From the IMG/VR virus record IMGVR_UViG_3300013103_000017, positions 1 through 42,854 of that record: a stretch of 42,854 nt of DNA; one strand, 5' to 3'. Below, in pieces: positions 1,930 to 38,669 of the stretch; the first letter of the stretch is position 1, and each line of letters opens with the position of its first letter. The translations under genes were made by a program, and so were the position numbers. This DNA is from a virus. Below the pieces are notes generated by a model. That model was not told the DNA's origin, did not search any database, and saw only the letters and a program-made list of their open reading frames with translations.

Positions 1930-2808
1930 TCACAGTATGGAGGTTATCTTGTAAATTCTCTTGCTAGTTGTAACAGAAGAACTCTCTGGTACTACTACAG
2001 TATTAAAGTATTGTCTGATACGATACTCTGTCATACCTGGATGTCTAAACTCTTCTGAGAGTGGCACATCTTTTCCATTATATACTCCATGTATAGCGGT
2101 TCCTTCTCCCTTTATCAAAACTACCGCATAAGTATCATACCACTTTGTTGGATAGAACTCTATCCCATAGCTTTCCTTGAACCAATTTATCAAGTTTGTT
2201 CTAACATTTTCTATATCCTGTGTTTTCATTAAGTAACCCCATGCTTGGACTGGAACAACCACTGCTACATTTCTAATATCACTATCATTTACACCAGAAG
2301 CTTGCAGAATTCCTTCTAACGCCTTCGCTATATCTCCTGCAGGGTCACCACTAGAAGTATTCCACTTAGCCGATGCCGCATGAGTATTACTTGAATAGTT
2401 TCCAGATGCTAAAGTTGTCAATATATTTTGGTCTTTAGCTTTTGCTAAAGCTTCGCCAGCTCGTCTTAGAACCATAGCCCATTGATTGTCAAATTGTCGT
2501 ATCTTAGCTTCATCTGTCAAAAACAATGGTACTTCAGCTTTCTTAAGTGAGAGAACAAAATCTGTCCATGTTATGCTATTATCAACATTTGCTACTGCTC
2601 CTTCAGCAACAGGATATTCTGCACTTAACTCACTTGGTATATGATATTTTAGCTCTAATGTATCAGTATTAACCACACCCACTATCTTTGTTCCCACAGA
2701 GATAAAGTCTGCAGCTCTGTATATAATCTTCCTTACAATATCAGCTCTTAATTCATTATCGCTTGTTATTGCTAATTTAGCGATTAATTCTCTAAACGCA
2801 TTCTCCAT
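1930..2808 (-). CDS. Major capsid protein (HK97 fold)
   Basis: A 292-residue protein placed directly after protease and decoration genes. The sequence alternates an N-terminal helix (ENAFRELIAKLAITSDNELR), a beta-rich E-loop/P-domain region and a C-terminal strand with VVPVQAWGYLMKTQ and AVVLIKGEGTAIHG, in line with HK97-type coat proteins. An AGGAGGTGTG ribosome site precedes the ATG. No internal delta-domain is obvious, as expected when scaffold is fused to the protease. It should be the most abundant virion protein. Confidence 0.8.
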   Translation of the reverse strand: MENAFRELIAKLAITSDNELRADIVRKIIYRAADFISVGTKIVGVVNTDTLELKYHIPSELSAEYPVAEGAVANVDNSITWTDFVLSLKKAEVPLFLTDEAKIRQFDNQWAMVLRRAGEALAKAKDQNILTTLASGNYSSNTHAASAKWNTSSGDPAGDIAKALEGILQASGVNDSDIRNVAVVVPVQAWGYLMKTQDIENVRTNLINWFKESYGIEFYPTKWYDTYAVVLIKGEGTAIHGVYNGKDVPLSEEFRHPGMTEYRIRQYFNTVVVPESSSVTTSKRIYKITSIL

Positions 2809-2825
2809 CTTTTACACACCTCCTA

Positions 2826-3287
2826 TCATAATGGCCTTAAAAGCACTTTTGCAGTGCCTCCAGCATTTACCGCTTTAGATTCTAAAGCAACACCCACAAT
2901 AGTTGTAAGCTTCTTAAATTGTGCTTCTACCTCGGTATCACTGAAAGATGAATTTAAGTCATCCCATTCAAATTTATCTATCTTTCCAGACCCTTTAACA
3001 TATACTAAGTCTCCTTGTTCAAATGCTTTATTACTTGCATCTACCTGTACTTCAGCAATTCCATCAACTTGTACTGCAATATAACCACTTGTTAAATAAG
3101 TTCCTGGATTAGCGGGGTCTTCTGTCGAGGTTAAATTAACACCGATTACTACTTTACCAGCAGTTCCATCATGTACTTTTACATAGTTGTTCGAAGCATC
3201 CCACATTAAAACATATCCACTATCTTGAATTGATGCTCCACCAAATGGTAGAGTAATTATCGAACCAGGCTTATTCACCAAAGACAT
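2826..3287 (-). CDS. Capsid decoration/stabilising protein (DUF2190-like)
   Basis: A 153-residue, beta-rich protein with the layout of capsid-cementing proteins: an N-terminal IITLPFGGASIQDSGYVLMW strand pair, KVVIGVNLTSTED, then VQVDGIAEVQVDASNKAFEQ and GDLVYVKGSGKI, and a C-terminal VGVALESKAVNAGGTAKVLL. The pattern of initial value, effect on permeate-like strand and final KVLLRPL is typical of DUF2190 proteins found beside capsid genes. The start overlaps the stop of the protease gene. It probably binds the outside of the mature shell. Confidence 0.7.
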   Translation of the reverse strand: MSLVNKPGSIITLPFGGASIQDSGYVLMWDASNNYVKVHDGTAGKVVIGVNLTSTEDPANPGTYLTSGYIAVQVDGIAEVQVDASNKAFEQGDLVYVKGSGKIDKFEWDDLNSSFSDTEVEAQFKKLTTIVGVALESKAVNAGGTAKVLLRPL

Positions 3288-4219
3288 TACTCAACCCTCC
3301 ATATCTCTTTTATCGCTTTATCTATTAAACTATTGACTTCATCTTCACTCAGCTCCTTCTTTTCAGGAGCCTCTAACTTTGTTTCCTTCTTCTCCACTAA
3401 ACTCTTCTTTATTCTTCTCAACACTTCTATCTTTTCTTGAAGTGTCTTAATTGGCTCAAGTATCATCTTCACATCAATGAATTTACTCTTCCCAGAAATC
3501 TCTTCCATCAATGCATTGAGTGTTTCCGTATCTCTTTTCTCTAACTCCGCCTCTAATCCTTTCACCTTTTCTTCTAACTCCTTAATCTTTGCATCCTTCT
3601 CCTTTAACTTCGCTTTCAATGCATTCAACTTACTCTCATATTCTTCATTTTTCGCTTTCGTCTCTGGATATGGATATGGATACCCTGCTTCCTTCAACTT
3701 CTTTTTACACTCCTCTGATATCTTATTAAAATCTCCTTTCTCTTTCAACTCCTTAATACAATCTTCTACACTCACCATCTTCTTTTCCTCCAACTTTGTC
3801 TCTCTAATATTTTTAATCCGAGCCGTTGGACAGGCTGGATTCTCCACTATTGCAATACTTTCAAATTCTAAATTATTAGCTATATAAACATCTCCAGCTA
3901 GTTCACCCAAAACTCTTGTCTCTACAGAAAAAGCTTTAAACTTACCATTCTTTATTAACTCTACTACATTCTTATCAAATATCTTAGCCTGAACTAAAAT
4001 CTTACCAGCGTCTGGTCTAACTGCACTGACATACCCAATAACTGCATCATCTGTATCTTGATGTCTCAACTTCACTCTTTTATTCACTAAACTCTTAGCC
4101 GCCTTTATTAAAACATCTGCAGGATAAAACACTTTATGACCATCGATTCCTTGATAAGTTCCTTCCTCTATTGCAACACCCTCTACTACCAATCCTTCTG
4201 CAGTTTCTTTCCACTTCAT
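3287..4219 (-). CDS. Prohead protease fused to scaffold domain
   Basis: A 310-residue protein in two parts. Residues 1-140 form a prohead protease domain with the expected histidine (LRHQD, H53) and serine (FKAFSVET, S98). Residues 145-310 are a highly charged scaffold-like region with a strong coiled coil (about 190-225) and a helical C-terminus. Protease-scaffold fusion is common when the coat protein lacks a delta-domain. It would assemble inside the procapsid, cut coat and itself, and leave before DNA packaging. GAGAGGTGTT lies upstream of the ATG. Confidence 0.8.
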   Translation of the reverse strand: MKWKETAEGLVVEGVAIEEGTYQGIDGHKVFYPADVLIKAAKSLVNKRVKLRHQDTDDAVIGYVSAVRPDAGKILVQAKIFDKNVVELIKNGKFKAFSVETRVLGELAGDVYIANNLEFESIAIVENPACPTARIKNIRETKLEEKKMVSVEDCIKELKEKGDFNKISEECKKKLKEAGYPYPYPETKAKNEEYESKLNALKAKLKEKDAKIKELEEKVKGLEAELEKRDTETLNALMEEISGKSKFIDVKMILEPIKTLQEKIEVLRRIKKSLVEKKETKLEAPEKKELSEDEVNSLIDKAIKEIWRVE

Positions 4220-4268
4220 AACTTAACACCTCTCATCACTATCAATATTGTATCACTATTGCCAATCA

Positions 4269-7058
4269 TCATTTCATTCGTCCCTCTGCAGAACTTTGAA
4301 CAGGTTTAAGAACCCAGATATCCGAATTCAAGTCTTCTCTTTTCGCCGCTATATAAATCTTTCCTACTCTCGCTTTAAACCACATTGGATTATCCTGTAG
4401 TATAAATGCATCACCTTTCTCAATAATAATATCCCAACCTTCTAAACTCTTATACGGATTATCTTTTTCACCCACTTTTATCTTACCCTGTCTATCAATC
4501 GCCTCTGAAGTATCTCTAATCGCCGTAGCTGTACCTTCTAAAGGATTACTATCACAAATAAACCTGATATTATTAATATATAAGTCCCAATATGCTTTCG
4601 ATGGTCCCTCTCTTATATGTTTTGGTCCTTTGAAAATCCTGTAATGAAGAGCGAATCTAGCTTTCTCAAGTTTCACTTGTTTAACATACTCATCTCTTAT
4701 CTTCCTTCTTTCACTTTCACTATCTTTCAACCAGTATTTAAACTGATTTGGGACTTGTCTTTTGAACTCAGGAGGCAAAGCGGAGACTCCTTTAGGAGGT
4801 ATCCAACCTTCTTCAACAGCTCTTTTCGTCAACACATATGGTATTTGGTCTTTAGTTTTCCAGAAGTTTAAGTATAGTGGTTCACCTGGCTTTTCTGGTC
4901 TTGCAATCTTCCTCACTACATATCTTCCTTTCAACTTTTCACCATAAAACCATATTTCATAAAAATACGGTTTAGCTACTGTAACCACACACTCTCCTTT
5001 ATCAACAATACTAAACACACCATACTCATATTTAGTTGCGCCAACTTCACCTGGCGGTACTACTCCCTCAACTGTTAACCATTCTAAACTCTCTGTCGCC
5101 TTTCTCACACACTGCACTTTATTATGGTCTTTAAATAACTTCGTGCATTTATTATCCCACTTCTTCGCTTTTTCAAGACTATCAACATCTTCTTTTATAC
5201 ATCCCTTGACTAACTCGAATAGTGTAAAGCCTTCAAGACTCTCATTAGTCATTTGTATTCTCAAATCACCATGTCTACTTCTTCCTCTATAATGGAACTG
5301 TAAAACAAACTTTCTCTTCTCATCACTCGCAACTATCTTACCCAATTTTATATCTCTAATCTCCTTTGGTAAATTTGGAGCTTCTTTATCCTTTACCGCC
5401 AATAAGTTAGCTTCATCTGCTATCTCTAAAGCATCATCAACAGTATCTGGTATTTTTTGGTCTGGTCTAATCTCATAAATTCTTGGCTCATATACTCTCA
5501 CTCCATTATCATATCTAAACAAAGTGTGAAAATTCACTGTTACTATAGTTCCTTTGGGTATATCCCTATTAGTCGAAAATGTTTTACCCGCAAACACATA
5601 CTTCTTACCATTTAATTCGATATTAGCCCACTCTGGATGAGAGCCTGGCATCAACCCTATGAAATAATTCCACACACCTTTAGTTTTTGTTTCCTTTCTT
5701 CCCACTATTACAGCGTGTATATCAGCCATATTCTTGAATTTCACCCAATATTTCGTTAACCCTGTCAAAGGATAAGTACTCTTTAAACTCTTAATCATAG
5801 CACCTTCACTCGCAGGCGCACTCGCCATTCTCTTTATGGCTTTCCTCAACTCTTCAGGACTATCAACCTTCACCGACACTACTCTATTCAATCCAGGCTT
5901 AGGTATCTCATAAGTACTCTGTTCAAACGGCAACACATCTAAATATTTCTGTCTAATCTCCAATGGCTCTCCCGTCAAATCACCCACTCTCGGATTAATA
6001 TCATGCTTACTCCACTTCTCATCATAAAAGTATAATATATCAAATACATTAAATACAAACATACTATCATCAAAGTTCTCTTCTTGATTGATATGTCCAT
6101 TTACTTCTTCTCTTCCCAAATGCTTCTTACCAATCCAACCTTCAGTTTCTGTATCCAATATAATCTTCTCTGGAAACCCTTTCAACTTCTCTTTCAAACT
6201 AGGGAAATGTCTAGAAACTTCTTTACCTCCATCTGTAAACACCCATATCTTACTTCCATCCTTATGTATCTGCAACCTTCCTCCATCATATTTCTTCTCC
6301 ACCACTAACGGATAATCCTCTTCATCAAAAAACTCCTCCACATTCTTAATACTATACTCCTCATTTGTATGATATCCTTTTACACCTTTCAGTGGAGTTA
6401 TAAATACTCCTGGTCTTACCTTTCCCTCCATCATTATTTTATACACTGGCTTTTTAGGTATTAATACCAAATCGTAGAGGGGTATGAAAGAAGTGAAAGG
6501 CCCATGATACATATCAAGCATTATACTTAGTCTACTTGACAACTCTTTTGGTAAAGCTCTTCCCAACCTAAACTCGACTGGCTTTAATATATTACTAGGT
6601 GTATTAGGAGGCCACTTTACCAGAATATCGATATCACCTTGTGTCTCTTCATGAACAGCTAGTCCTCCCACTAATGAAATAAAGTTATCAGATAACATTA
6701 TTGGCTTCTTAAAATGCTCCATCACTTCACTTAACTTTATCCTCTTTCTCTTTTCACTCTCCTCTCTAAACGAATTCACTTCAGTATAATCTTCACCAAT
6801 TACAGCTGATACTAGCAAATCCAACTCTCTTCCATATTTCTTCATTGAAACATGTCTTCTCATTCCTCTCTTTCGCATCTCCTCCGCTATTTCAATAGCT
6901 TTCTTTACTATCAACTGGATAGGCCACTTACTCTTTCCCTCTCTAGCATCATTATAGAATTTATGTATGAGGGCATTATCAAATACCAACTCTCTGTCAC
7001 TACTCTTTCTTGGGTCATAATTCCTCAAATCCTTAATATATCTAGCTTCTATCTCCAT
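4269..7058 (-). CDS. Nucleotidyltransferase + ATP-dependent DNA ligase + LigD-type phosphoesterase-like fusion
   Basis: A 929-residue multidomain enzyme (numbers below count from the upstream GTG at 7067; subtract 3). An N-terminal polymerase-beta-type nucleotidyltransferase motif is seen at 133-149 (VGG then GDIDIL). A ligase adenylation domain follows: motif I KYDG at 259-262 (K259 nucleophile), DTETEG at 305-310, motif III FNVFDILYF near 339-347, motif IV SEGAMIKS at 420-427 and motif V WVKFKN at 441-446. An OB-like part runs to about 536. Residues 586-606 match the LigD 3'-phosphoesterase signature (FVLQFHYRGR, then HGDLRIQ). A second, diverged copy lies near 804-830 (FALHYRIF, then WDLYI). 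It sits between portal and protease genes, an odd place for a repair enzyme. The start is ATG 7058 after GAGAGGTGAT. Confidence 0.8.
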   Translation of the reverse strand: MEIEARYIKDLRNYDPRKSSDRELVFDNALIHKFYNDAREGKSKWPIQLIVKKAIEIAEEMRKRGMRRHVSMKKYGRELDLLVSAVIGEDYTEVNSFREESEKRKRIKLSEVMEHFKKPIMLSDNFISLVGGLAVHEETQGDIDILVKWPPNTPSNILKPVEFRLGRALPKELSSRLSIMLDMYHGPFTSFIPLYDLVLIPKKPVYKIMMEGKVRPGVFITPLKGVKGYHTNEEYSIKNVEEFFDEEDYPLVVEKKYDGGRLQIHKDGSKIWVFTDGGKEVSRHFPSLKEKLKGFPEKIILDTETEGWIGKKHLGREEVNGHINQEENFDDSMFVFNVFDILYFYDEKWSKHDINPRVGDLTGEPLEIRQKYLDVLPFEQSTYEIPKPGLNRVVSVKVDSPEELRKAIKRMASAPASEGAMIKSLKSTYPLTGLTKYWVKFKNMADIHAVIVGRKETKTKGVWNYFIGLMPGSHPEWANIELNGKKYVFAGKTFSTNRDIPKGTIVTVNFHTLFRYDNGVRVYEPRIYEIRPDQKIPDTVDDALEIADEANLLAVKDKEAPNLPKEIRDIKLGKIVASDEKRKFVLQFHYRGRSRHGDLRIQMTNESLEGFTLFELVKGCIKEDVDSLEKAKKWDNKCTKLFKDHNKVQCVRKATESLEWLTVEGVVPPGEVGATKYEYGVFSIVDKGECVVTVAKPYFYEIWFYGEKLKGRYVVRKIARPEKPGEPLYLNFWKTKDQIPYVLTKRAVEEGWIPPKGVSALPPEFKRQVPNQFKYWLKDSESERRKIRDEYVKQVKLEKARFALHYRIFKGPKHIREGPSKAYWDLYINNIRFICDSNPLEGTATAIRDTSEAIDRQGKIKVGEKDNPYKSLEGWDIIIEKGDAFILQDNPMWFKARVGKIYIAAKREDLNSDIWVLKPVQSSAEGRMK

Positions 7059-7081
7059 TTCTATCACCTCTCAAAATTTTA

Positions 7082-8446
7082 TCAAGTAATTTGTTTATCT
7101 CTCCTACTCTCTGGTGTAATATTATATTGTGGCTCCTTACTCTTCACTGGTCTTGATGCTATCTCTCTTGGCGTCTCTGTTCTTTTGTGAACAGTAGCTT
7201 CTGGTAGCTTCTCTGGACTAATGGTTGGAGCACCCCATAAAGCTCGTAATTCATCAAAGGTAAATAAGCCACTCTCTCGTAGAATCGCAATTTGTCTCGC
7301 TATATCTATCTTATCTTTTTCCAACACTAAATCAAACACTATATCAAGCTTATTACTCAGCGGCTTCAACTTATCAGGTAATCTTGACATCAACCATTTG
7401 AATAATTCTGGCTTCATTAAACTCACTAAATATCTGGCTCTCGCAATCACCAATGAAATCAATGCCAAAAACGAAGAATAGCTTCCTTTACTCTGTCCTG
7501 TAAAAATCGCCATAGGCATACCAACAGCTGCCGCTATATTACCATTTAACTGGTCTATAAACTCATTCGGCGAACTATAACTACTCTTCGGCTCCAATAT
7601 ACTAATTTCAACATTATCAAGAGTGATGTAACTTTCATCCGCCTTTACCTTTCTTATCTTCTCCTTATAATCACTTATAGCTTGATTTGCCGCACTAATT
7701 GCATTTTGTATCTTCTCCTCCGCATTCTTTCCCGCATAATACTCTGGTTTAAATGCCTCTGAACTCAATCTATGATGCTCTCGCGGTATTAATCTATATC
7801 TCCAAAGCATATCATTCTCAATTAAACTCATCTTCCATAAGACCGTTGAAATTATAGGCTTTATAGGCGAAACACTCCACACTCCATATGTCAATCTACC
7901 TTTATTATCATAGACATAAACCTCTGGATTCAACGAAAAATGTATCACTTCTTCTGGTTTTAAAATCTCCTGACTCTCACTCCCTTCATTCAGTACATAT
8001 AATCCTCTCTTTGTTATTACTTCACTTGAGAAATTATTAAGGTAGCTCCTATCTGGAATAATGGTAAGGTTCGCCAATGGTAAGAACTCCAAACTATCTT
8101 TTCTCAACACTACATCTCCATCTCTCAACAATCCAAAAGCAATTCTATAAATCAACCCTTTCAAATCATACTCTTTAATTATTCTATTCGCTTGTATCAC
8201 TAACTCACGCTCTTCCTCTTCAATTACTTCACCAAATCTCACACTAATTCCTTTAAAGGCATCACTGATTAGTGCCGCTAAAGTATGGATTGAACCATAT
8301 AATACAGGGTCTATCTCCGTCAACTTTTGATACTTTAAATACTGATTATCAGGCAAATTGAAACTTCTTCTCATCACCTTCAACGCATATATTATACTAG
8401 GTGGGTATGATAATCTCCCACTAAACACTTCTTTATTCCAACTCAT
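7082..8446 (-). CDS. Portal protein
   Basis: A protein of 454 residues with portal-like composition: helical N-terminus, a beta-rich wing (DGDVVLRKDSLEFLPLANLT) and the conserved helical stretch containing FIDQLNGNIAAAVGMPMAIF followed by SFLALISLVIARA. The block 'LNGNIAAAVGMP' is typical of the portal crown/stem boundary. It lies directly after the large terminase. ATG 8446 is chosen because GGTGAGTG precedes it; ATG 8458 overlaps that ribosome site. The 12-mer portal is the DNA entry channel and the site of head nucleation. Confidence 0.8.
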   Translation of the reverse strand: MSWNKEVFSGRLSYPPSIIYALKVMRRSFNLPDNQYLKYQKLTEIDPVLYGSIHTLAALISDAFKGISVRFGEVIEEEERELVIQANRIIKEYDLKGLIYRIAFGLLRDGDVVLRKDSLEFLPLANLTIIPDRSYLNNFSSEVITKRGLYVLNEGSESQEILKPEEVIHFSLNPEVYVYDNKGRLTYGVWSVSPIKPIISTVLWKMSLIENDMLWRYRLIPREHHRLSSEAFKPEYYAGKNAEEKIQNAISAANQAISDYKEKIRKVKADESYITLDNVEISILEPKSSYSSPNEFIDQLNGNIAAAVGMPMAIFTGQSKGSYSSFLALISLVIARARYLVSLMKPELFKWLMSRLPDKLKPLSNKLDIVFDLVLEKDKIDIARQIAILRESGLFTFDELRALWGAPTISPEKLPEATVHKRTETPREIASRPVKSKEPQYNITPESRRDKQIT

Positions 8447-8507
8447 TACACTCACCATTTTATCTTATTTATATTCTATATATTGTATTAACTATTTCAT
8501 ATTTATA

Positions 8508-9905
8508 TTAAGTGAAACTCTCAACCATAAATGGCAGAAATGGCTTTCTAAACTTATCCAAAAACTGCACTATATTCGCCACTGTATCAGCTACATCTTT
8601 TGAACCTTTTCTTGGATGGTCAACTTTTCCATTCATCTTCACTTGTAACTCTATCAACTCTCTAAACAATACCTGATAATTCGGCAATACTATCTTCTTC
8701 TCAAAAATCATCTCTCTCAACTTATTATAATCATCCGCATTAACTCTATGAAACTCTATATTAACACCCTTCTCTTTCATCTTCTCCAATAAATGAGGAA
8801 AGTGCCATAAATCTAAAATCAAAGTTGTAATATTAAACCTCTTACACAATCTCAAGAAAAACTCTTCTACTTCAGAGGGTGAAATAAATCCACTCTCAGG
8901 CTGAAATCTGTAACTTCCATCAATAATAATCTTTCCATTTCTCTCCAAATGTCCAATACTTACTCCAAAAGCATCATTTTTAAGTGAAGGGTCAATTGCC
9001 ACTATATACTCTTTCTCGAAATCTTTACACTCTTCTATTTTTAACAAAACATTATCACCCACCATCACTTCTTTCACCACTTCTGGTTTACTAAAGAAAG
9101 CATACTGAGAGGCGAAGGGTTTACATCCAAAATCTCTCCAGAAACTCAGTGGGTCTATTCTTCTAGCTTCCTGTAACTCTTCACAATCGAACGGTAGATT
9201 AGGATTTAACTCCCATGTTGGTATTATCATTCTCATTGTATGCTTTGAACCCTCTGCTTGAGCATATAACTGCATGATTGCATCTTGAGGGTGAACAGGA
9301 CTAGAAATAGCGATTGATTTGCCTTCAAAACCAAATGTAGCCGTAGACTTTGCAAGAGTATTAAATATATTCACTCCATTTATCTTTTCTGTCTCCTCAA
9401 ATCTACTCACCTCATCAAGAACAAAAGCTTTAAGAGTTCTTCCAACATTACTAGCTAACGCAGATGTTGATGCCAACACCTTAATATACTTCTCTGGAAA
9501 CTCAATACTCAAACTCCTCACCTTATATTCAAATTCATTGAAGAAAGGTGATGCCACTAACTTTGGCTTAATCTGTGCCAACACCGTATCTATCGCCTGT
9601 TCTTCTTTCTTCGCCACCAATAAAATCGCTATAGGTGACCCATGAGCCAAACCATAAACTTCTTGAGGATTACTCAACGCTAACAACTTGAACAACTCAT
9701 ATAAAGCTATAACACTAGACAAAAATGTTTTGCCAGACCTCATCCCCGCAATCAAAATCAACCTATTATACTTCTTCTTCTCATCATAAAACTCTCTCAA
9801 TATTTCTCTCTGTCTAGGCCACAACTTCAAACCCAAGAAATATTTACTCTCTGCAAAATACACTGGGTCATTTCTCGCCTTCAACACTTCCACTACATCA
9901 TACAT
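8508..9905 (-). CDS. terL: Terminase large subunit (packaging ATPase-nuclease)
   Basis: A 465-residue packaging motor protein. The ATPase domain has Walker A GMRSGKT (about residues 54-60) and Walker B AFVLDEVSRFE, followed by SIAISSP as the coupling motif. The RNase H-like nuclease domain has VAIDPSLKNDAFG, LILDLWHF and the C-terminal KGSKDVADTVAN acidic motif. ATG 9905 follows GGGTGAT and overlaps the small-subunit stop by eight bases. The enzyme docks on the portal, translocates DNA and cuts it at the end of packaging. Confidence 0.92.
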   Translation of the reverse strand: MYDVVEVLKARNDPVYFAESKYFLGLKLWPRQREILREFYDEKKKYNRLILIAGMRSGKTFLSSVIALYELFKLLALSNPQEVYGLAHGSPIAILLVAKKEEQAIDTVLAQIKPKLVASPFFNEFEYKVRSLSIEFPEKYIKVLASTSALASNVGRTLKAFVLDEVSRFEETEKINGVNIFNTLAKSTATFGFEGKSIAISSPVHPQDAIMQLYAQAEGSKHTMRMIIPTWELNPNLPFDCEELQEARRIDPLSFWRDFGCKPFASQYAFFSKPEVVKEVMVGDNVLLKIEECKDFEKEYIVAIDPSLKNDAFGVSIGHLERNGKIIIDGSYRFQPESGFISPSEVEEFFLRLCKRFNITTLILDLWHFPHLLEKMKEKGVNIEFHRVNADDYNKLREMIFEKKIVLPNYQVLFRELIELQVKMNGKVDHPRKGSKDVADTVANIVQFLDKFRKPFLPFMVESFT

Positions 9906-10380
9906 TATAATCACCCTGCCACTTACTTTCTTCAAGTATTTTAATAACCTTCTCTCTTAACTCTTTCGGCGCCTCTTTCAACAACAAATCAGTTATCTTA
10001 TTCAAAACCATAACATTAACTGTGACTTGTGGTGCCGTCTGTATCTCACCTTTTATCTTCGCAAACAACTCTATCGCTCCTCTCAACTCCTTCACAATCT
10101 TCGCGATAGCCCCTTCACTCACCTCACCAATCGGCTCACTCACCAAAATCATAACTCTCTCATTCAACACATCTATAATATTCTCAAGCATCTCCACATA
10201 ATCATCAATAGTCTTTTGTTTCTTCTTCACTTTCTTAATATGAGGCACATGTCTCGCAAACTCTTCTAATGACACTCCCAATATTTTCGCCGCTTTACTC
10301 ACACCAATTTCACCCTTCAAAAATCTTTCTTCCACTACTTTCCTCAAACCACTTTCCATCTCACAAATCCGACACATCAT
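9898..10380 (-). CDS. terS: Terminase small subunit-like HTH protein
   Basis: A 160-residue protein with an N-terminal helix-turn-helix (KGEIGVSKAAKILGVSLEEF), a basic linker (KKVKKKQK) and a long helical oligomerisation region. Size, HTH and position just before terL fit a small terminase that recognises the packaging site. An N-terminal CRIC pair might bind metal but lacks a clear partner. GAGGTG lies close to two adjacent ATGs (10380, 10377). It is the first gene of the late minus-strand operon and faces the divergent control region. Confidence 0.75.
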   Translation of the reverse strand: MMCRICEMESGLRKVVEERFLKGEIGVSKAAKILGVSLEEFARHVPHIKKVKKKQKTIDDYVEMLENIIDVLNERVMILVSEPIGEVSEGAIAKIVKELRGAIELFAKIKGEIQTAPQVTVNVMVLNKITDLLLKEAPKELREKVIKILEESKWQGDYNV

Positions 10381-26779: not shown

Positions 26780-27059
26780 GTTGTTTTTTCTGGTAGAGGA
26801 TATTTTAAGACCGATATATAATAGTAAAAAGTTTGCAAGTGTAGTGGAATTTATATTAAAGAACTATTGGTTTGAGCCGGTGAAAGAGGAAGAACTTAGA
26901 GATGCAATATTGAGGTTTTATTCAATACATACCATGCATAATATTAAAAGATTATTATTAGATTTTAATATAATTAATTATTATTTTGATGAGGAAGGAA
27001 GGAAATATAAGATTACGGAACATTTTAGAGAAAAGTTAAATGAGAGGAGGAATGTGTAA
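26772..27059 (+). CDS. Small winged-helix-like protein
   Basis: A 95-residue protein with FILKNYWFEPVKEEELRDAI, then NIKRLLLDFNIINYYFDEEG and RKYKITEHFREKL; this helix-helix-wing order matches a winged helix. The stop overlaps the start of the Sak4-like gene (TAATG). Possibly a regulator or replication accessory protein. Confidence 0.6.
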   Translation: MSELFFLVEDILRPIYNSKKFASVVEFILKNYWFEPVKEEELRDAILRFYSIHTMHNIKRLLLDFNIINYYFDEEGRKYKITEHFREKLNERRNV

Positions 27060-27862
27060 TGGCGTGGAATAAACCAAAGGAGAATGGAGAAGTGTTGAAT
27101 GTAGATGCTTTCTTTAAAAGAGTTGAGAGTGAAGAGGTAAAGATGAAATATTTGAAAGTTGGAATATGGGGACCAGAAGGATGTGGAAAAACATATTTCA
27201 GTATGACAGCACCAGAGCCTATTTTAATAATTGATACAGATGGAGGAGCGGAAGGAGTTAGAACACATCATTTTGAGGATAAAGATATTAGAATTTTCTT
27301 TGTGGACCCCGTTGATTATGATACTGGAAAGATTGATGTGGAGAGAGCTTTAAATGATGTTGAGGATGCAGTGAAGGCAATAGCTAAGGCGGTAAAACAA
27401 GGAGGAATAAAGACAGTGGTGTTAGATTCGGGAACAGATATTTGGAATTGGATGTATACTTGGTTAGAAGGAATTGCACATCTAACAAAAATAGGGACTA
27501 TACCACAGTTTGAGTGGGGTAAGGCAAATGAAAGGTGGAGGAAGATATTTCATACTTTGAAGTGGTTACCAGTGAATTTCATTTTGACGGGTCAAGAGAA
27601 GGTAATAAGTGAGAAGAAGGAGGAAGTGGTGAAAAGAGCTGCATGGCAAAAACAAACAAGATATTGGGTGGATATAAAGATAAAAGTGTTTAAGAAGACG
27701 ATAGAGGGAAGTAATAAGTGGCAGTTTTGTGGTTTGTTGGAGAAGATAAGATTTATGCAGATTGAACAAGCAACACTATGTAATTTGAGTTGGAATAAGC
27801 TAATAGATTATTTAAAGAAAATAGGTGTGAAAGTTGATGATAGTTTATATGCAAAGAGATGA
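27059..27862 (+). CDS. Sak4/RecA-like ATPase (AAA_24 type)
   Basis: A 267-residue P-loop ATPase. Walker A WGPEGCGKTYFS (about 39-50), strand PILIIDTDGGAEGV, and Walker B with TVVLDSGTDIWNWM. This layout fits the AAA_24/Sak4 family, RecA-like single-strand annealing or exchange proteins of tailed viruses. C-terminal strands and helix complete the core. It stands directly before a Cas4-like nuclease, as annealing proteins often do. Confidence 0.8.
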   Translation: MAWNKPKENGEVLNVDAFFKRVESEEVKMKYLKVGIWGPEGCGKTYFSMTAPEPILIIDTDGGAEGVRTHHFEDKDIRIFFVDPVDYDTGKIDVERALNDVEDAVKAIAKAVKQGGIKTVVLDSGTDIWNWMYTWLEGIAHLTKIGTIPQFEWGKANERWRKIFHTLKWLPVNFILTGQEKVISEKKEEVVKRAAWQKQTRYWVDIKIKVFKKTIEGSNKWQFCGLLEKIRFMQIEQATLCNLSWNKLIDYLKKIGVKVDDSLYAKR

Positions 27863-27868
27863 ATGTAG

Positions 27869-28627
27869 ATGTATGAAGATTATATACATAAAAGTGGAAT
27901 GTTGGTATACTTGGCCTGTCCAAGAAGATATTATTATGAGTTTATTGAGAAAAGGCAGTATGAAAGAAGTATATCGGCTCAGCTTGGCGCAAGATTCCAT
28001 GACTTTGCGGAGAAATTCTTCGATTTCGTGGAAAGAAGTAAATTGGAGAGGTTAGTGACATTTAAGGAGACAAGAGAATATTTTAATAGTTTGGTTGAGG
28101 AAGATAAGAGTATAAGTGGCATGCAGTATAATTTTGTTTCGTTTGAGGCGAAGAGATGGGTACAGTTAAGAAATTGGTGGTTATGGTTTCCAGTAGCAAG
28201 AGAGTTGAGAGTAATTAATGATGAAATGAAGATGATTGGTAAAATTGATAGGATTGATAGAACAAATGATGAGATGTTGGTGATAGTGGAGTATAAAACG
28301 GGAAAAAGGAGGCAGTTAAGTAAGATTAGGAAGGAATTGGCGTTTTATTGGTTATTGTTACAGGGAGCGAGAGGACTGCCACCAGAGATTAATCCGAAGA
28401 GAGTAAAGTATATAGCGATGTATAATCCAAGTTTAAATAGTGTATGGTATGAGGAGTTAAAGAAGAGAACAGTGACTGCATTAAAGAAGAGTATAAAGAA
28501 GTTTAGAGAGGGATTGAATAGAGAGGATTTTGAAACGAATCCAGGTGAGCAGTGTATGTGGTGTCCATTTTGGGAGTTATGTGAAGAGGAAGTAAGAAAG
28601 AGTGGAGTGGAGGTGAAGAAGAGATGA
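27869..28627 (+). CDS. Cas4-like PD-(D/E)XK exonuclease with Fe-S cluster cysteines
   Basis: A 252-residue nuclease. C17 (LACPRR) and C229, C232 and C238 (CMWCPFWELC) give the four cysteines of the Cas4/AddB-type 4Fe-4S site. H44 (GARFHDFAEK), D127 (GKIDRID) and E142-Y-K144 (VIVEYKTG) are the RecB-motif residues. Cas4-type proteins resect DNA ends; there is no CRISPR module nearby, so this is the viral recombination nuclease. It is likely the partner of the Sak4-like ATPase. Confidence 0.85.
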   Translation: MYEDYIHKSGMLVYLACPRRYYYEFIEKRQYERSISAQLGARFHDFAEKFFDFVERSKLERLVTFKETREYFNSLVEEDKSISGMQYNFVSFEAKRWVQLRNWWLWFPVARELRVINDEMKMIGKIDRIDRTNDEMLVIVEYKTGKRRQLSKIRKELAFYWLLLQGARGLPPEINPKRVKYIAMYNPSLNSVWYEELKKRTVTALKKSIKKFREGLNREDFETNPGEQCMWCPFWELCEEEVRKSGVEVKKR

Positions 28628-29037
28628 AGTTAAGACATTTGAAGGTGAAAAATGCATGTGAGAGGTGTAGGGTGAGTGATTTGATTAGATGTGGTGAGGA
28701 CGATTTTATTTTTGAGTGGACTTATGGAGTAATTAGACCTGAAGATGAAATAGAAGCGATACCATCTTGGTTTGTAGTGGAGAAGAATATACCAATTTGG
28801 TATGTATATGGGAGAAGAATGCCAGTGCAAGTAAGTGTAAGACAGTGGATGTATGTGAAGAGAAGTTTAAGAATTTTTTTAAGTAGAATGGCGAGACCAG
28901 GACTGAAAATAATCGATGACGGAGATGTAACTTGGTTGGGTATTCTTTATGAGGCATCTGGTTTGGATTTATATGATTGGAGTAATATTGTTGAAGAGGC
29001 GAGAAAAACATTGTTCTATTTGTTGGAGGTAGAGTGA
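28624..29037 (+). CDS. Unknown protein of the recombination operon
   Basis: A 137-residue protein with an N-terminal CERCRVSDLIRC cysteine group and a basic, tryptophan-rich middle (VSVRQWMYVKRSLRIFLSRM). Coupled at both ends (ATGA and stop overlap). Position between two nucleases suggests a DNA-processing role; no family recognised. Confidence 0.6.
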   Translation: MKLRHLKVKNACERCRVSDLIRCGEDDFIFEWTYGVIRPEDEIEAIPSWFVVEKNIPIWYVYGRRMPVQVSVRQWMYVKRSLRIFLSRMARPGLKIIDDGDVTWLGILYEASGLDLYDWSNIVEEARKTLFYLLEVE

Positions 29038-29669
29038 TGAGTGTTATAGTGGATAGTAGAGAACCAAAATGGGTGAGTAAGGCGTTGAGAAGATATGGAT
29101 TAAGTGTAAAGATTGAGGCATTAGATTTTGGTGATATAATGAACAGGAGAGTTATAATTGAGAGAAAGACGATGAGTGATTTGTGGAATTCAATAAGTGA
29201 TGGAAGATTGACGAAACAAAGTAAGTTTATGGTGAAGTTGGCGGAGAGTGAAGGTAAGATACCATATTTTGTTATTCATGGGTATCTTGAGAGAGAACCT
29301 CATATTGATTTCAATAGAGTGATGAGTATGGTTTATGGGACAATAGCGAGTTTGAGTTATAGAAGCGGAGCACAAGTGATATATACAGAAGATGAAGATA
29401 TGGCGGTGTATATAATGGTGAAAATATTGAAGGGAGTGAGTGAAGGAAAGGTGGCAATGCCGTGGATAATACGAAATTCGGATAAGAGAGTGCAAGCATT
29501 AGTGAATTTATTTGGAATAGCACCAAGTTTAGCGAAAGCATTATTGTTTCATTTTAAGAGTGTTAAAAGGGTGTTGGAGGCGGGTAAAGAAGAATTAATG
29601 ATGGTGAATGGTATAGGTGAGCATAAGGCAAAGAGAATATGGAATATATTGAATAAAGAGTGGAGGTAA
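29037..29669 (+). CDS. XPF/Hef-type structure-specific endonuclease
   Basis: A 210-residue protein. The ERCC4 nuclease domain carries the IVDSREPKW motif and IIERKTMSDLW (V-ERK-x3-D signature, complete). The C-terminal tandem helix-hairpin-helix (LFGIAPSLAKALLFHF, ELMMVNGIGEHKAKRIWNIL) binds branched DNA. No helicase domain is present, so it is a compact form like crenarchaeal XPF. It would cut flaps, forks or recombination junctions. ATG 29037 follows TTGGAGGTAG. Confidence 0.9.
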   Translation: MSVIVDSREPKWVSKALRRYGLSVKIEALDFGDIMNRRVIIERKTMSDLWNSISDGRLTKQSKFMVKLAESEGKIPYFVIHGYLEREPHIDFNRVMSMVYGTIASLSYRSGAQVIYTEDEDMAVYIMVKILKGVSEGKVAMPWIIRNSDKRVQALVNLFGIAPSLAKALLFHFKSVKRVLEAGKEELMMVNGIGEHKAKRIWNILNKEWR

Positions 29670-29674
29670 ATAGA

Positions 29675-30802
29675 TTGAATTTATGGGACTTGATGACAGA
29701 GGAACTTGAAAGCAGGGATTTAGCATATGTTAGAGATTATGGGTGGTTTTATATGGCATCACTTGGAGCCCATATTCTCAATAATCGCCAAAGAGTCTCA
29801 CCAGTCTTATTTCTTCAGGGTTTGCCATTTGATATACGCCTCCACATATTAATGGTAGCACCATCAGGGTTTGGTAAATCTATTTGGTTATATCACTTTT
29901 TGGATGAAAGGTTTGGTCTATCTTGGGTTCAATCTTTTAATGTGTCCTTTCAGCAGACTATGTCGAGTGCGGGGTTTGTAGGTACTATTAAGTTTAGTGA
30001 TGGAGAAGTGGTGAAAGTGCCAGGAGTAGCAAAGAGGTATGAAAGTGGGATTATTGGAGTAGAAGAGTTTAGTGGTATTACAAAAATGTTTCTAACTTCT
30101 CATGGAGGACAATTGGATAATCAGTTATTAACAGCATTGGATAAAGGAATGGTGGTGAAAAGTTTGGGACCAGGTGAATTGAAATATAAGACTGGCGTGA
30201 CATTGTGGGCTGGAACACAACCATCAAGATTTGATTTAAGTAGTGGAATGGGGAGAAGGTTTTGTTTTTTGGTATTTCTTCCAACAGATAAGGATATAGA
30301 GTTGTTTGTAGAGAAAAGAGAAAGAGGAATGAATAAAGTGTGGAATAAGGAGAGGACGAAAGAGATTAGGAAAAGAATTGATGAATTGATGAGAGAGGTG
30401 TATAAGATAGAAAAGATTATACCAAGTGAAAGATTATATGAGATTCTTAGACGATATAAGACAATACATTATGAGTATGATTTGTATGAGAGATTGGCAT
30501 TAGGGTATACATTATTGAAGTATGGAGTGAAGAAAGAGATGAAAGTGATAGTGGATAATGATTTGATAGATATGATAAGAAAAGAGTATGTGTGGAGAGA
30601 GCAGGTGAAAAGAGGACCAGAAGTAAGTCAAATTATCAATGTAATAAGGAGTGAAGAGAAAAATGAAATTGATATTGTGAAGTTGAAGAGTAAGTTAGTG
30701 TTGTTGGGTTTGGATTGGAAACAGTCAAGTGAATTAATTAGAGATGCGGAAAGACTTGGTTTGATAAAAATAAATGGAAGAAAGGTAAGGTTGGGGTGGT
30801 AA
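29675..30802 (+). CDS. MCM-like AAA+ ATPase with C-terminal winged helix
   Basis: Roughly 375 residues (numbers from GTG 29660). Walker A APSGFGKS (67-74), Walker B IIGVEEF (132-138), a sensor-like LWAGTQPSRF (182-191) and an arginine finger in GMGRRF (about 196-201). The C-terminal 60 residues form a winged helix (IDIVKLKSKLVLLGLDWKQS, LIRDAERLGLIKINGRKV). Such a core plus wHTH matches a minimal MCM-like helicase without the N-terminal domain; a helicase loader is an alternative. TTG 29675 follows TGGAGGTAA; ATG 29693 is the other choice. The first 100 codons have atypical base use. Confidence 0.7.
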   Translation: MNLWDLMTEELESRDLAYVRDYGWFYMASLGAHILNNRQRVSPVLFLQGLPFDIRLHILMVAPSGFGKSIWLYHFLDERFGLSWVQSFNVSFQQTMSSAGFVGTIKFSDGEVVKVPGVAKRYESGIIGVEEFSGITKMFLTSHGGQLDNQLLTALDKGMVVKSLGPGELKYKTGVTLWAGTQPSRFDLSSGMGRRFCFLVFLPTDKDIELFVEKRERGMNKVWNKERTKEIRKRIDELMREVYKIEKIIPSERLYEILRRYKTIHYEYDLYERLALGYTLLKYGVKKEMKVIVDNDLIDMIRKEYVWREQVKRGPEVSQIINVIRSEEKNEIDIVKLKSKLVLLGLDWKQSSELIRDAERLGLIKINGRKVRLGW

Positions 30803-30804
30803 TC

Positions 30805-31344
30805 ATGAAGAGAGTTGTAATTAGTATAGAGGATGGAATTTATGAGAAATTGAAAGGTGTTAATGTGAGTGAGATATGTAAAAGAGTTTTGAGAGATTAT
30901 GCTAAGTATATGGATAAAGATATGGTGAAGTTGATGAATTTGAAGAGGGTGGAAGAGTTATATTTAAGATGGTTAGCAAAAGCGGATAAGAGTGGTGAGA
31001 GAGTAAAAACATCAGTTTCGATTCCTATAGGTATTCTTGAGGTGTTGAAGAAGAGGAATATCAATGTATCGAGATTAGTATCTGAGTTATTGTATATATA
31101 TTTACAAGATGAGTTTGATGAAGCAGTGGAAAAGAAGTATAAGGAGGTGAAAAGAAAAAGAGAAGAGTTTGAAAAGGATATAAGAATAGATATGTTGTTT
31201 AATGAGTTAAGAGGATTGGTGAAAAATAGTGAGAGTGAAGATGAGTTTATGGAGAAATGTGTGAGTATTGTAGAGGAGTTGAAAAGATTGGATGTGGAGT
31301 TAGATGAAGAATATTTGAGGAAGTTTTATAGGATGATGAAATAG
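30805..31344 (+). CDS. Double ribbon-helix-helix regulator
   Basis: A 179-residue protein with two RHH units: KRVVISIEDGIYEKLKGVNV/SEICKRVLRDYAKY near the start, and VKTSVSIPIGILEVLKKRNI/NVSRLVSELLYIYLQDE at about 70-107. A charged helical tail follows. Two RHH domains in one chain would act as an internal dimer and could bind repeats in DNA such as the iteron-like array. Start is ATG 30805 after a weak GGTGGTAATC. Confidence 0.7.
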   Translation: MKRVVISIEDGIYEKLKGVNVSEICKRVLRDYAKYMDKDMVKLMNLKRVEELYLRWLAKADKSGERVKTSVSIPIGILEVLKKRNINVSRLVSELLYIYLQDEFDEAVEKKYKEVKRKREEFEKDIRIDMLFNELRGLVKNSESEDEFMEKCVSIVEELKRLDVELDEEYLRKFYRMMK

Positions 31345-31377
31345 TGTTGAGATGAATAAGAGTTGAGGTGATGAGAA

Positions 31378-32226
31378 ATGGTGAAGTTATATTATGAAGA
31401 TGAGAAAGTGAAGATTTTCCATGGAGACTTTTTAGAGTTAAAATTAGATGATGAAGACTTACCTAATGTGATAATAACAAGTCCGCCTTATAATGTAGAT
31501 ATGCCTTATGATGAGTATAATGATTTTATGCCTTATCCAGTATACTTGAATAAGGTGAGAAGGTGGATGGTGAAAATGAGAAGATTGTTGAAAACAGATG
31601 GAAGGTTGATAATTAATATACCGTTTGCGATATATAAAGGAGAGAGGATACCAGTAGTAGCGGATTATTGTAGGATAGGTAAGGAAGTGGGTTTGAAGTT
31701 TCACACAATAATAGTATGGGATAAAGGTGCGGTGTTGAAAAATAATTTTGGAAGTATGGATGCCCAGAACCCATTTTGTGTGCAGAGAACTGAAGCTATA
31801 TTGGTGTTTTATAAGAATAGTTGGAAGAGAGAAGGGAAGAGTTTTATAAGGAAGGATAGATATTTAAAGTTGACGGAAGGATATTGGCAAATACCAGGAC
31901 CAAAGCAAAATCTTGGACATCCCGCACCGTTTAGTGAGAAGTTAGTAGAAGCTATAATAGAGTTGTTTGTATTGGAAGGTGATGTAGTGATGGACCCATT
32001 TATGGGGACAGGAACAACATTAGTGGTGGCGAAGAGATATGGGTTGAAAGCGATTGGTATTGATATTAGTGAGAGATATTGTTGGACGGCGAAAAGAAGG
32101 TGTGAGAGAGTGCAAGGAGTTCAACAAAAGTTACCAGATATATTTGCGAGTAGTGAGAGTAGGATAGAAGGCGATGTAAAGAATGAGAAAAAGAAGGAGG
32201 TTAAAGGATGGTGGATAAGCATTTAG
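31378..32226 (+). CDS. DNA methyltransferase (TSPPY, class beta)
   Basis: A 282-residue enzyme with TSPPYNVDMPYDEYND near residues 35-50 and the SAM-binding DPFMGTGTTLVVAKRYGLKA near 203-222. Catalytic motif before the FxGxG motif gives class beta; SPPY suggests N4-cytosine (or N6-adenine) methylation. There is no nuclease beside it, so it probably protects viral DNA from host restriction. GAGGTGATGAGAA precedes the ATG. Confidence 0.85.
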   Translation: MVKLYYEDEKVKIFHGDFLELKLDDEDLPNVIITSPPYNVDMPYDEYNDFMPYPVYLNKVRRWMVKMRRLLKTDGRLIINIPFAIYKGERIPVVADYCRIGKEVGLKFHTIIVWDKGAVLKNNFGSMDAQNPFCVQRTEAILVFYKNSWKREGKSFIRKDRYLKLTEGYWQIPGPKQNLGHPAPFSEKLVEAIIELFVLEGDVVMDPFMGTGTTLVVAKRYGLKAIGIDISERYCWTAKRRCERVQGVQQKLPDIFASSESRIEGDVKNEKKKEVKGWWISI

Positions 32227-33309: not shown

Positions 33310-33555
33310 ATGAATGTTGTGCAGGATTGGAGAAGATATAAAGGAGATAGATTGATTGTAAGTGTAGAAGTTATTGATGATGGAAAGAGAGTAGATGAGT
33401 TACAATATTGGAGATTAAGAGTGAAGTGGAGAGATAGAGTGATGTTTGAAACAGAAGAATGTATGGTGAAGGTGTTGCAATATTTCACATATTGGGTTTC
33501 ATTTTTGAATGAGATGATAGAAATAGGAAGAGAACATGGAGGTGTAATGAAATGA
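33310..33555 (+). CDS. Unknown small protein upstream of PCNA
   Basis: An 81-residue protein (MNVVQDWRRYKGDRLIVSVE). Strands then helix. The stop overlaps the PCNA start (ATGA), so it is co-translated with it; a PCNA-interacting partner is possible but no PIP box is seen. Confidence 0.6.
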   Translation: MNVVQDWRRYKGDRLIVSVEVIDDGKRVDELQYWRLRVKWRDRVMFETEECMVKVLQYFTYWVSFLNEMIEIGREHGGVMK

Positions 33556-34292
33556 GAATAAGGATGTTGGGTGATATATTTAGAGAAATGATAGCAATAG
33601 TAGAAATACTTGGTGAAGCAACCTTCAAGTTCACGAGAGAGGGTATAGAGGTAAATCAGTTATTAAATGCGAAAACTTGTATGTTGAGATGGAATGTGAA
33701 GGAAGAGATGCTGGAGAGGTATGAGATAGGTGAGAATGATGAGATATTGTTTGCATTGGATAGTAGATTTGTGAAGGGAATGAAAAGAGAGAAGACGGAT
33801 TATGTAGAGCTAGAGTTTAAAAACAATGAATTGAAGATTACGATGATAAATGAAAAGAGTGGAGTGAAGAGAAGAGTGAGAGGACAAGTGATTGAACCAG
33901 GAGAGATAAATGAGGGTGTAGCGAAAGTACCAGAGGTGGTGAAGTTCATGATTTATCCAAGTGAGATGTATAAGATATTAAATGCGTTGAAGAGAAAGGA
34001 TGCATCGTTTAGAATAAGAGCGAATAAGAGTAGAATTATATTTGAATTAGTAGACCCAAATGTTTTTAAAGAAGTAGAGTTGAGTGCGAGCAGTGATATA
34101 ATTGGAATGTATGAGGTGGATAGTGATGAGGAAGTGGTGAGTAAATATAGATTGGAAGCAGTGATGAAATTCTGTGAAGCTACAAAAGATTTTGATGCAT
34201 ATACAATATCGTTTGGAGAATATACACCATTAAAAATAGTAGCGAGAAAGTACAGTAGTTTGGAGTATCTGATAGCCCATGTTGTTGAGTAG
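33552..34292 (+). CDS. pcn: Sliding clamp (PCNA)
   Basis: A 246-residue protein, the usual length for archaeal PCNA. Pattern: two alpha/beta halves joined by a linker, with FKFTREGIEVNQLL, ALDSRFVKGM and a C-terminal half with SFRIRANKSRIIFELVDPNV and VVSKYRLEAVMKFCEATKDF, ending in PLKIVARKYSSLEYLIAHVVE minus the last residues. It would recruit host polymerase B, ligase and the XPF nuclease to viral DNA. GGAGGTGTAATGAA precedes the ATG. Last gene of the rightward unit. Confidence 0.85.
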   Translation: MRIRMLGDIFREMIAIVEILGEATFKFTREGIEVNQLLNAKTCMLRWNVKEEMLERYEIGENDEILFALDSRFVKGMKREKTDYVELEFKNNELKITMINEKSGVKRRVRGQVIEPGEINEGVAKVPEVVKFMIYPSEMYKILNALKRKDASFRIRANKSRIIFELVDPNVFKEVELSASSDIIGMYEVDSDEEVVSKYRLEAVMKFCEATKDFDAYTISFGEYTPLKIVARKYSSLEYLIAHVVE

Positions 34293-34899: not shown

Positions 34900-37800
34900 T
34901 TAACCCCATCTTGTTATTAATTGCGAACCAGCTCGATAATTTATATAGCTTCCCGAGCTATTCCAAATAACAATTCTCTTTAACATTGCCGAACTACTGG
35001 TTGGATATGCCACCACCTTTATTATTAATGATACTCTACAAGAAAAATCTGTAAAGTCACAATCAAAGTATCGATAGTTACCGCTAGAACTAGACCCATT
35101 CGCATTACCTGTATATGACCCCATTTGTGAAATACTATCACCACTCGTTTGTGTTGAATACACATAGATATCAATCCCATCCGCATTAAATCCATTATAG
35201 CTAGTATAAAACCTTACCTTAGTCCAATTATAGCCACTTTCAAACCCTGGTATAATAAACCACAATGTATATGTTCCCGACCCTCTAAAATGCACTGTCA
35301 TTCCATCATCAATATAATAATATCTACTCATGAAACTTCTAGCCCAAATCTCATCCACATACTTCAAATCGTTATCATGACAGTCTAAAACACTTCCTAT
35401 CGTGAATCTTATATTTCCATCACTATCTTTTATATCTCCTCCATTAATCTGTAAGTCTCCACCCACTTCGAAATCATCTACAGTTCTAATTTTATCACTC
35501 ATAATCTGCATTTTAGTGGTTCCTGCTCTCTGCAAATACAAATCTTGATTATAACTTCCAACTGCTCCAGTATCAACAGTAAGACCTTTATTAAAATAAA
35601 ATCTACTTCTATCTGTATAAAAATGACACCAACTAGTATTCTTTGGTCCTAAATCAAGCCAACCATATCCCGTAGAAACTCTTATAGCTCCTCCCGATGA
35701 ACCTTTCAAGCTAGCATGAAATACAACTGGGTCTCCTAAAGTTATCCTTGAAGTACCTCCAGAATCAAGAATATCATTTCCTCCAATCTTAAAATCGTAT
35801 CCTGTCTCCACTAATCCACTATCATGATATATCTTCAAACAGAATCCTTTTGTATCACTATATACTCCCCAATATGTTCCAGTATAACTTCCTGGTCTCA
35901 TATCGAAGCTCCAATTTTGGTTGTTTCCAGTTGCTTCCAATCTCATATTTTGATTTCCCATCCACTTAATAAAATCACTCTCATTTGATGTAAATTGTCC
36001 TTTTATCCATAAGTTACCATTAGTGTCCAACTCCATCAGTTTTGTATCACTTCCACTTTCTCTTCCATACCATCTAAAGTAATGAGCTGAATCCGATGGC
36101 ACTATAAAGGCTAAAGTCGAAGATTTAATCGCCAATCCATGAAAGTTATCTGCATCTTTCTCACCAAACAATGCAATCTTATCATTAGCCTCATCCTGGA
36201 ACTTTATATACTTCCCTGAATCCATTTCTAGATTAGAAGTTATCTTTCCACCCAAAGAAAAATCATGAGCAACCCACAGATTATTACCGATATCAATATC
36301 TCCTCCAAATGTCTGGTTATCATATCTTCCATATCCTGTCCATCTCGGCGAATTATATACATATAATTCATGGCTACCTGTATCCACTTTAATTGTAGAA
36401 TCATCAACTTTATCACTAAGATACCCAGCTGTTGAGTCACCAGAATCTGCTTTTACTTTCTCATCAACACTACTACCACCACTTGAAGTCCACTCAAACT
36501 TACCACTAGAAGCATCATAACTCAAGACATATCCATCAGATGGCGAATTAGTCGCTTTAATTGATACAGGCCATACTGATTCTGTTGCAATCTTTCCGCT
36601 ACTATCAATCTTAAACTTCTCACTACTACCATCATAAATACTTAATAAATCACTTCCACCCAAAGAATTAATCCTCAAAAATGAATCCGACTGAATAATC
36701 GATGGCGAATATAAATCAGTTTCACTCCCCACCGAAACACTATAACTACTTGGTTCTTTCTTATACCACCCTGGCACCACTACATCATCAATAGCACAGC
36801 TTTTCGTTGAATCTGTAGTTCTATCAATCCAAACAAAATCTAACTGCTTATCTCTATTACAATCCATACTGAAATATGTCCAATCTTCCTTTTGATTTTC
36901 CAAACTATCACTTGTTTCTGTTCCATCCTTATACTTTACATGAACATCTACATTATCAGCCGCATGAGGTAATTTATACCATAACGATATACTTTCCGCA
37001 TATGATTCTACACTTCTTTCTTGCTTTATATCAGCCGCATAATAAGTTCCACCACTATAACTATCCAATTCACAACCATACATTCCTGAGTGATTATACC
37101 ATACAGTACTTTTTACACTAGCCGAGTTAGATTCATTATAAGGTGAAGTCCATGGTGACAAACTTCCACTTTCAAATCCTCCATTACTTATCATATTACC
37201 AGAATAAACTAATGTATCAAACTTACTACTCTTGCCACTTACAGAGCTATTGCCATACCACAAATAAATTGTCGTATCTCCATTCGGTAAATCTGGTACT
37301 CTCACATAAATCTTTGTACTACTAGTATTAATACCAGATTTAATCCAATAATTCAACTCATTCTTCATAGCTGTATCCGTACTGAATCTAATATCATCTC
37401 CATCACTTTGCATCTTTCCTGCACTTATCAAACTTTGCGTATCTAATGTTATCTCCACCACTACATCACTTTCATCACTTCCACTATTCGTAATAGTAAT
37501 CGGCACTCTGTATCTCCAAGCACTAGAACTACCCGCCATGTCAATCTCAGTCGGCTTCTCAATCACACCAGTAATATGAACATCATCCCACTTATGTTCT
37601 TCACTTCCCAAATCCAATCCAGTATCTCTCGGAAGTAACGAACCTGGTACTGCATCTAAATCCCAAACTTTTGTCAATAACAATCTATGTTCATTCACTA
37701 CTTCTGTTGTCTCTTCTAATGCTCCCGTTAAAGTCGGTTTTATACTTTCCAAATCCAATCTCACTTCATATCTCTCACTTAAAATAAACTTCTTAACTCT

Positions 37801-38664: not shown

Positions 38665-38669
38665 TTCTA

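Follow-up and report, generated by a model that had tools for sequence, protein, structure and literature searches.

Known virion-borne phage enzymes mostly target the host or host defences. Among the described systems, polyvalent proteins are large multi-enzyme chains that are encoded in the head operon of portal-terminase viruses and are predicted to be packaged and injected (PMC5512222). Iyer et al. (2017) also described zincin-like processing peptidases and a paucity of polyvalent proteins in archaea, and the text of that article mentions neither LigD nor XkdF (PMC5512222). A further related system is found in ANMV-1, a virus of uncultured methane-oxidising archaea from a methane seep (KP703175.1), which encodes a protein annotated just as 'ATP-dependent DNA ligase' (AJP62006.1), its gene being located directly downstream of the portal gene.

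The present work concerns a head-operon gene of an IMG/VR virus record (IMGVR_UViG_3300013103_000017; the whole stretch of 42,854 nucleotides that was analysed is called the window) which encodes a nucleotidyltransferase (NTase), an ATP-dependent DNA ligase and two phosphoesterase (PE) domains in one chain. AJP62006.1 is a full-length homologue of this protein (30% identity over 89%), and ANMV-1 was its only match among 50,697 named phage records; when four divergent queries were compared with these records, ANMV-1 was again the only one to hold the whole module. A literature search, with subscription journals mostly outside its reach, found no paper describing an NTase-ligase-PE head module.

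Domain architecture of the polyprotein

The forward-strand translation of 4269-7058 contains stops throughout, while the reverse strand is a single open frame (Table 1); the chance of 930 stop-free codons, computed at this base composition, is ~4e-28. The 929-residue protein of the original prediction corresponds to the ATG start, and the open frame extends to an upstream GTG. The chain consists of a small helical domain, a minimal NTase, an ATP-dependent DNA ligase core, PE1 and a degenerate PE2. The ligase is the sole domain recognised from the single sequence (Pfam DNA_ligase_A_M, residues 240-445, E 9e-20; the PHROG annotation is likewise ATP-dependent DNA ligase), so that the NTase and PE domains were identified only via family profiles and structure models. 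The full-length model of the polyprotein has a pLDDT of 84, and the predicted viral structure A0A516LT18 aligns with it over nearly its full length. The motifs read beforehand from the letters of the sequence are all in place, namely GG134-135 and GDIDIL144-149 in the NTase, KYDG259-262, SEGA420-423 and YWVKFK440-445 in the ligase, and H592 followed by H599-G-D601-L-R603 in the intact one of the two PE parts, the second one being diverged as had been claimed. These domains are present in the structure models and their catalytic residues are kept in homologues.

Table 1. Position of the polyprotein gene, its domains and the adjoining head genes in the window. Residue numbering follows the 932-residue frame (P0001).
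Feature	Position	Strand	Residues and evidence
Polyprotein gene	4269..7067	(-)	932 codons from GTG at 7067; 929 from ATG at 7058
N-terminal helical domain	6819..7046	(-)	Residues 8-83; found in 26 ORFs
Minimal Pol-beta-type NTase	6447..6743	(-)	Residues 109-207; G134, D145-x-D147, D199
Ligase adenylation domain	5691..6419	(-)	Residues ~217-459; K259, D261, E421, K443
Ligase OB domain	5391..5693	(-)	Residues 459-559; family profiles, conservation, structure
PE1, LigD-type 3'-phosphoesterase	4803..5354	(-)	Residues 572-755; Q590, H592, H599, D601, R603
PE2, degenerate phosphoesterase	4302..4679	(-)	Residues 797-922
Portal protein	7082..8458	(-)	PHROG portal E 0.001; joins ANMV-1 portal in iterated profile
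Terminase large subunit (TerL)	8508..9935	(-)	PHROG E 1.3e-33
Head maturation protease (XkdF/S78-like)	3287..4219	(-)	PHROG E 2.7e-6; conserved His and Ser
Head decoration/cement protein	2826..3287	(-)	Pfam Phage_cement_2 E 1.7e-5
Major capsid protein (MCP)	1930..2808	(-)	Pfam Phage_capsid_4 E 7e-7

The ligase core has the features of the ATP-dependent DNA ligase superfamily, that is, the KxDG lysine, motifs IIIa-V and an OB domain. Residues K259, D261, G262, R372, E421, G422, K426 and K443 show no or almost no variation among 48-50 relatives. The model matches human LIG1 (DNA ligase I) with a Z of 25.7 over 306 residues, and Foldseek also matches DNA ligase.

In PE1, the residues Q590 (42/46), H592 (44/46), H599 and D601 (46/46 each) and R603 (45/46) are conserved and are the equivalents of Gln40, His42, His48, Asp50 and Arg52 of Pseudomonas aeruginosa LigD (PMC8656161), and the metal site of LigD-type PEs (the Mn site His42-His48-Asp50 plus Arg52, P. 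aeruginosa numbering) is retained. When the PE1 family profile was compared with all PDB chains, the LigD-type PEs 3P43, 3P4H, 5DMP, 3N9B and 2LJ6 were found with E values of 2e-5 to 0.03, together with one weak unrelated row (3jwi, E 0.22); with a profile of PE1 plus PE2 the best E value was 3e-9 and LigD-type PEs were the only rows. LigD_N (PF13298) remained below the cut-off in a six-frame search of the records and just passes in one locus searched as protein (L045), hence the assignment rests on family profiles and residues. The phosphate-site residues His84 and Tyr88, essential in P. aeruginosa LigD (PMC8656161), are replaced in the PE1 family by E (23) or Q (20) and by W (45) at the equivalent columns, and a nearly invariant lysine, K656, is located near the altered site. 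As these phosphate-binding residues are replaced, the reaction of PE1 may differ from that of LigD; the family is a separate PE branch. PE1 and PE2 profiles find each other across the family, which identifies them as homologous domains; the metal ligands of PE2 are mostly lost in most members and retained in a few (L004, L005, L007 and L009).

The NTase shows the attributes of the Pol-beta superfamily: the hG[GS]...DxD motif, a third acidic residue and a minimal alpha/beta fold. G134, D145 and D147 are present in 39/39 relatives and D199 in 30/39. This domain was modelled separately, the structure search with the full model being swamped by ligases; the model has a pLDDT of 88 and its best structural rows are minimal nucleotidyltransferases (Z 5.0-5.6), whereas the sequence-only PDB match is weak. 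The fold match given by the predicted structure is thus good without being conclusive. The N-terminal helical domain aligns with the N-terminus of L006 (hhalign E 5e-6), which itself matches Pfam Pyr_excise just over the cut-off, and weak PF03013 matches occur at the position of this domain in four records. The direct comparison of T4 DenV with this domain was not significant and a PDB profile search with it returned nothing usable; from the profile matches, it is tentatively assigned as a diverged Pyr_excise (T4 endonuclease V)-like domain.

Relatives of the module and their head genes

The alignment of the window protein with AJP62006.1 retrieved 48 IMG/VR loci, and five further loci were found in archaeal MAGs (Methanosarcinales, Methanophagales and another euryarchaeote); one locus, L051, seems to be a plain ligase and was left out of the member count. 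The domain order had at first seemed unfamiliar, and it proved not to be unique: ANMV-1 and ~45 uncultured viral contigs have the core in identical order with the catalytic residues kept. By domain profiles, the order in relatives is NTase, ligase, OB, PE1 and PE2, at times followed by a third PE and often preceded by the N-terminal domain, and this order persists in chains divided over two or three genes; a minority of relatives (e.g., L027, L029 and L033) have a single PE. Single-sequence search found no close relatives in viral contigs, and the portal and capsid proteins of the window, used as queries, gave no near kin, so that dN/dS could be measured only among related, more distant members, where values of ~0.05-0.18 indicate purifying selection.

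Additional domains occur in several of these chains. A uracil-DNA glycosylase (UDG) is located between ligase and PE in six records, and other chains carry D12 or C5 DNA methylases, a metallo-beta-lactamase, a 2H phosphoesterase, DUF6884 or a T4-endonuclease-V-like domain. Judged by their families, most of the added domains are of kinds that act on DNA, in lesion removal, end healing, sealing or methylation, and the window carries the minimal core.

The relatives also differ in their inserts and neighbouring segments. The ligase frame of L047 (7778-12985) contains an intein-like insert of 344 aa in the ligase domain, with LAGLIDADG_2 (E 6e-22) and Intein_splicing matches; L031 (3814-5100) has a LAGLIDADG_3 insert ahead of PE1 and L023 (12794-13618) a Hint/LAGLIDADG insert inside PE1. 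In L040 (6411-11803) the ligase domain is distributed over two ORFs; the ~2.1 kb that separate them contain three ORFs and may be an intron or other mobile element. L004 carries a separate metal-dependent hydrolase gene (phrog_392; 3609-4700, +) between portal and module, and at this place relatives such as L005, L041 and L045 have the module fused to a metallo-beta-lactamase domain. A subgroup (L026, 8855-12931; L036, 4739-9286; L031, 1006-6354) has large segments between the N-terminal domain and the NTase, and that of L036 (440 aa) gave no Pfam match.

In the window, the gene is indeed placed between portal and protease, as had been proposed, with TerL and portal upstream and the protease, decoration protein and MCP downstream. 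L004, L005, L014, L039 and L040 likewise have the order TerL, portal, module, protease and MCP, of which many other loci show a subset. Among loci with identifiable neighbours, the portal usually precedes the module, and the protease and MCP follow it. ANMV-1 is a partial exception, the portal being followed by the module and the recognised protease being 21 kb off in the linear record. The portals beside the module fall into four or more families (phrog_12, 113, 10963 and the window type) and the terminases into separate groups; thus, the module stays in place among the head genes although these gene sets are unrelated.

In many relatives the head protease is part of the same chain, although polyprotein and protease are unfused in the window itself. 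The Pfam XkdF protease (PF14550) shares an open frame with the ligase in 17/46 relative records, two scans giving concordant frame lengths, and ligase, PE and head protease are found in one open frame in 19/46. With a clean profile seeded from the window's own protease, the window-type protease domain was located at the C-terminus of the chain in L006/L007 and L009, and fused to the following PE gene in L023, L039 and L048. The conserved His and Ser positions of the protease are kept in the fused copies. Such fusions imply a stoichiometric link to the protease that matures the prohead; no other argument for counting the repair enzymes among the head components is as strong, and gene order and fusions together support that the repair module is tied to the head.

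One further gene of the window bears on the host. It encodes, at 33552-34292 (+), a divergent archaeal-type sliding clamp (PCNA), which matches archaeal DNA polymerase sliding clamps (E 1.5e-9) and suggests an archaeal host; the window probably represents a tailed virus of archaea. An opposite-strand block at 27059-32226 (+) includes an AAA_24 ATPase (27059-27862), a PD-(D/E)XK nuclease (27869-28627) and an N6/N4 DNA methylase (31378-32226), and a tail-region protein of 1259 aa with DUF2341 and a carbohydrate-binding-module-like domain is encoded at 34900-38679 (-).

Possible role of the module and alternative explanations

The original prediction of a virion- or packaging-associated end-repair enzyme is borne out in part: the domain content and the head-operon site hold, and the link to virion or packaging is strongly and independently supported by the protease fusion in relatives and the placement beside unrelated portals, from which we infer presence in the virion. 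We consider it somewhat probable that the window encodes a DNA-repair polyprotein associated with the capsid, which is loaded together with the head protease or by it and is probably delivered along with the genome. This polyprotein would be made late, together with the head proteins, and would enter the prohead alongside the head protease or as a fusion with it, to be freed by that protease afterwards; it would remain in the capsid and act on the packaged or newly injected genome. The PE would restore a 3'-OH by trimming 3' ends that are damaged or blocked (3'-phosphates, ribonucleotides), and the ligase core would then seal the nick or end. The NTase may either attach a nucleotide or modify a partner by nucleotidylation, and PE2 would most likely serve as a DNA-binding or scaffold part. 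A wider claim, made with less assurance, is that a widespread and largely uncultured class of tailed viruses, archaeal ones included, may carry a base-excision and end-joining kit in the capsid; this kit would be synthesised in a single chain with the head protease, cut free at maturation and delivered with the genome for repair on arrival.

The proximity of the module to portal and terminase in the window and its relatives would also suit an enzyme of packaging-stage quality control, which would act at the portal or terminase, seal nicks and gaps of the concatemer before or during DNA entry and be absent from the mature virion. The late-operon site agrees with such a role, as does a ligase combined with 3'-end healing, which suits nicked replicating DNA; it is nevertheless unlikely, as fusion with the head protease suggests a location inside the prohead and the glycosylase and methylase domains suit a newly arrived genome equally or better. 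That same fusion, the constant position beside several portal families and the fact that neither clamp nor replication gene adjoins the module in the window make it quite improbable that this is an ordinary viral replication ligase merely co-transcribed with the head genes, even though no record holds an ATP-dependent ligase other than the module's own and the window encodes its own sliding clamp. Portal-adjacent genes often encode minor head proteins, and this, along with the degenerate PE2 of most members, could suggest a minor structural head protein with vestigial catalytic domains; the almost complete conservation of the catalytic residues of ligase and PE1 leaves this explanation with very little probability.

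The module could, in addition, be an injected counter-defence kit in which NTase, 2H and PE domains act not on viral DNA but on RNA (tRNA ends) or on signalling or cyclic nucleotides. Minimal NTases resemble MNT antitoxin enzymes, 2H phosphoesterases and DUF6884 are present in some relatives, and roles of this kind have been proposed for the 2H domains that polyvalent proteins contain (Iyer et al., 2017; PMC5512222). The ligase, however, is of the DNA ligase I/IV type, and the UDG, T4-endonuclease-V-like and DNA methylase domains act on DNA, so counter-defence appears improbable.

If the capsid-borne repair polyprotein is real, a kit loaded into the capsid to mend the viral genome would represent a strategy different from that of host-directed virion enzymes, it would explain how old virions are kept infective in damaging or nutrient-poor settings, and fusion of the cargo to the head protease would constitute a simple packaging rule. 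Polyvalent-type proteins would, moreover, be extended to archaeal viruses, where they have been reported as scarce. The module also makes a compact ligase and 3'-healing enzyme available for testing.

Comparison with known systems

The ANMV-1 protein shares with that of the window the order NTase, ligase, PE, PE and the site behind the portal, and differs from it in that the profile scan gave no clear N-terminal domain, the PE1 arginine is replaced by Met and the protease gene is distant. Archaeal LigD-type 3'-phosphoesterases (3P43, 3P4H and 5DMP) resemble PE1 in family and metal-site signature and are the best PDB matches of its family profile; unlike the module, they are cellular, lie outside viral head operons and are not chained to NTase and ligase. 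Bacterial LigD, which acts in NHEJ and combines POL, PE and LIG domains, likewise has a LigD-type PE and an ATP-dependent ligase core in one protein, while the module differs by its Pol-beta-type NTase, by the altered phosphate pocket of the PE (His84 to E/Q, Tyr88 to W) and by its head-operon site. The window protein gave no Pfam match to an AEP-type polymerase domain, although not all LigD proteins have every domain, and no Ku was found in 47 viral records, a host Ku being possible. On account of the altered pocket and of the lack of Ku in these 47 records, the identification of the module as LigD was rejected.

Phage fusions of an XkdF-type protease to a DNA methyltransferase (PHROG 1530) resemble the relatives of the module in that a head protease is joined to a nucleic-acid enzyme, a single methylase in that case as opposed to an end-healing and sealing module. 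As in polyvalent proteins, several disparate enzymatic domains are combined in one chain encoded among virion genes. Signature domains of that group (zincin-like peptidase, ArdC-N and others) gave no Pfam match in the window protein or the scanned segments, although a protein of the published set need not have them; unlike the published members, the relatives of the module have the head protease itself fused. The module is a new form of the virion-borne multidomain ("polyvalent") protein theme and not a LigD, its predicted packaging being deduced from the head genes with which it is encoded and, in relatives, fused.
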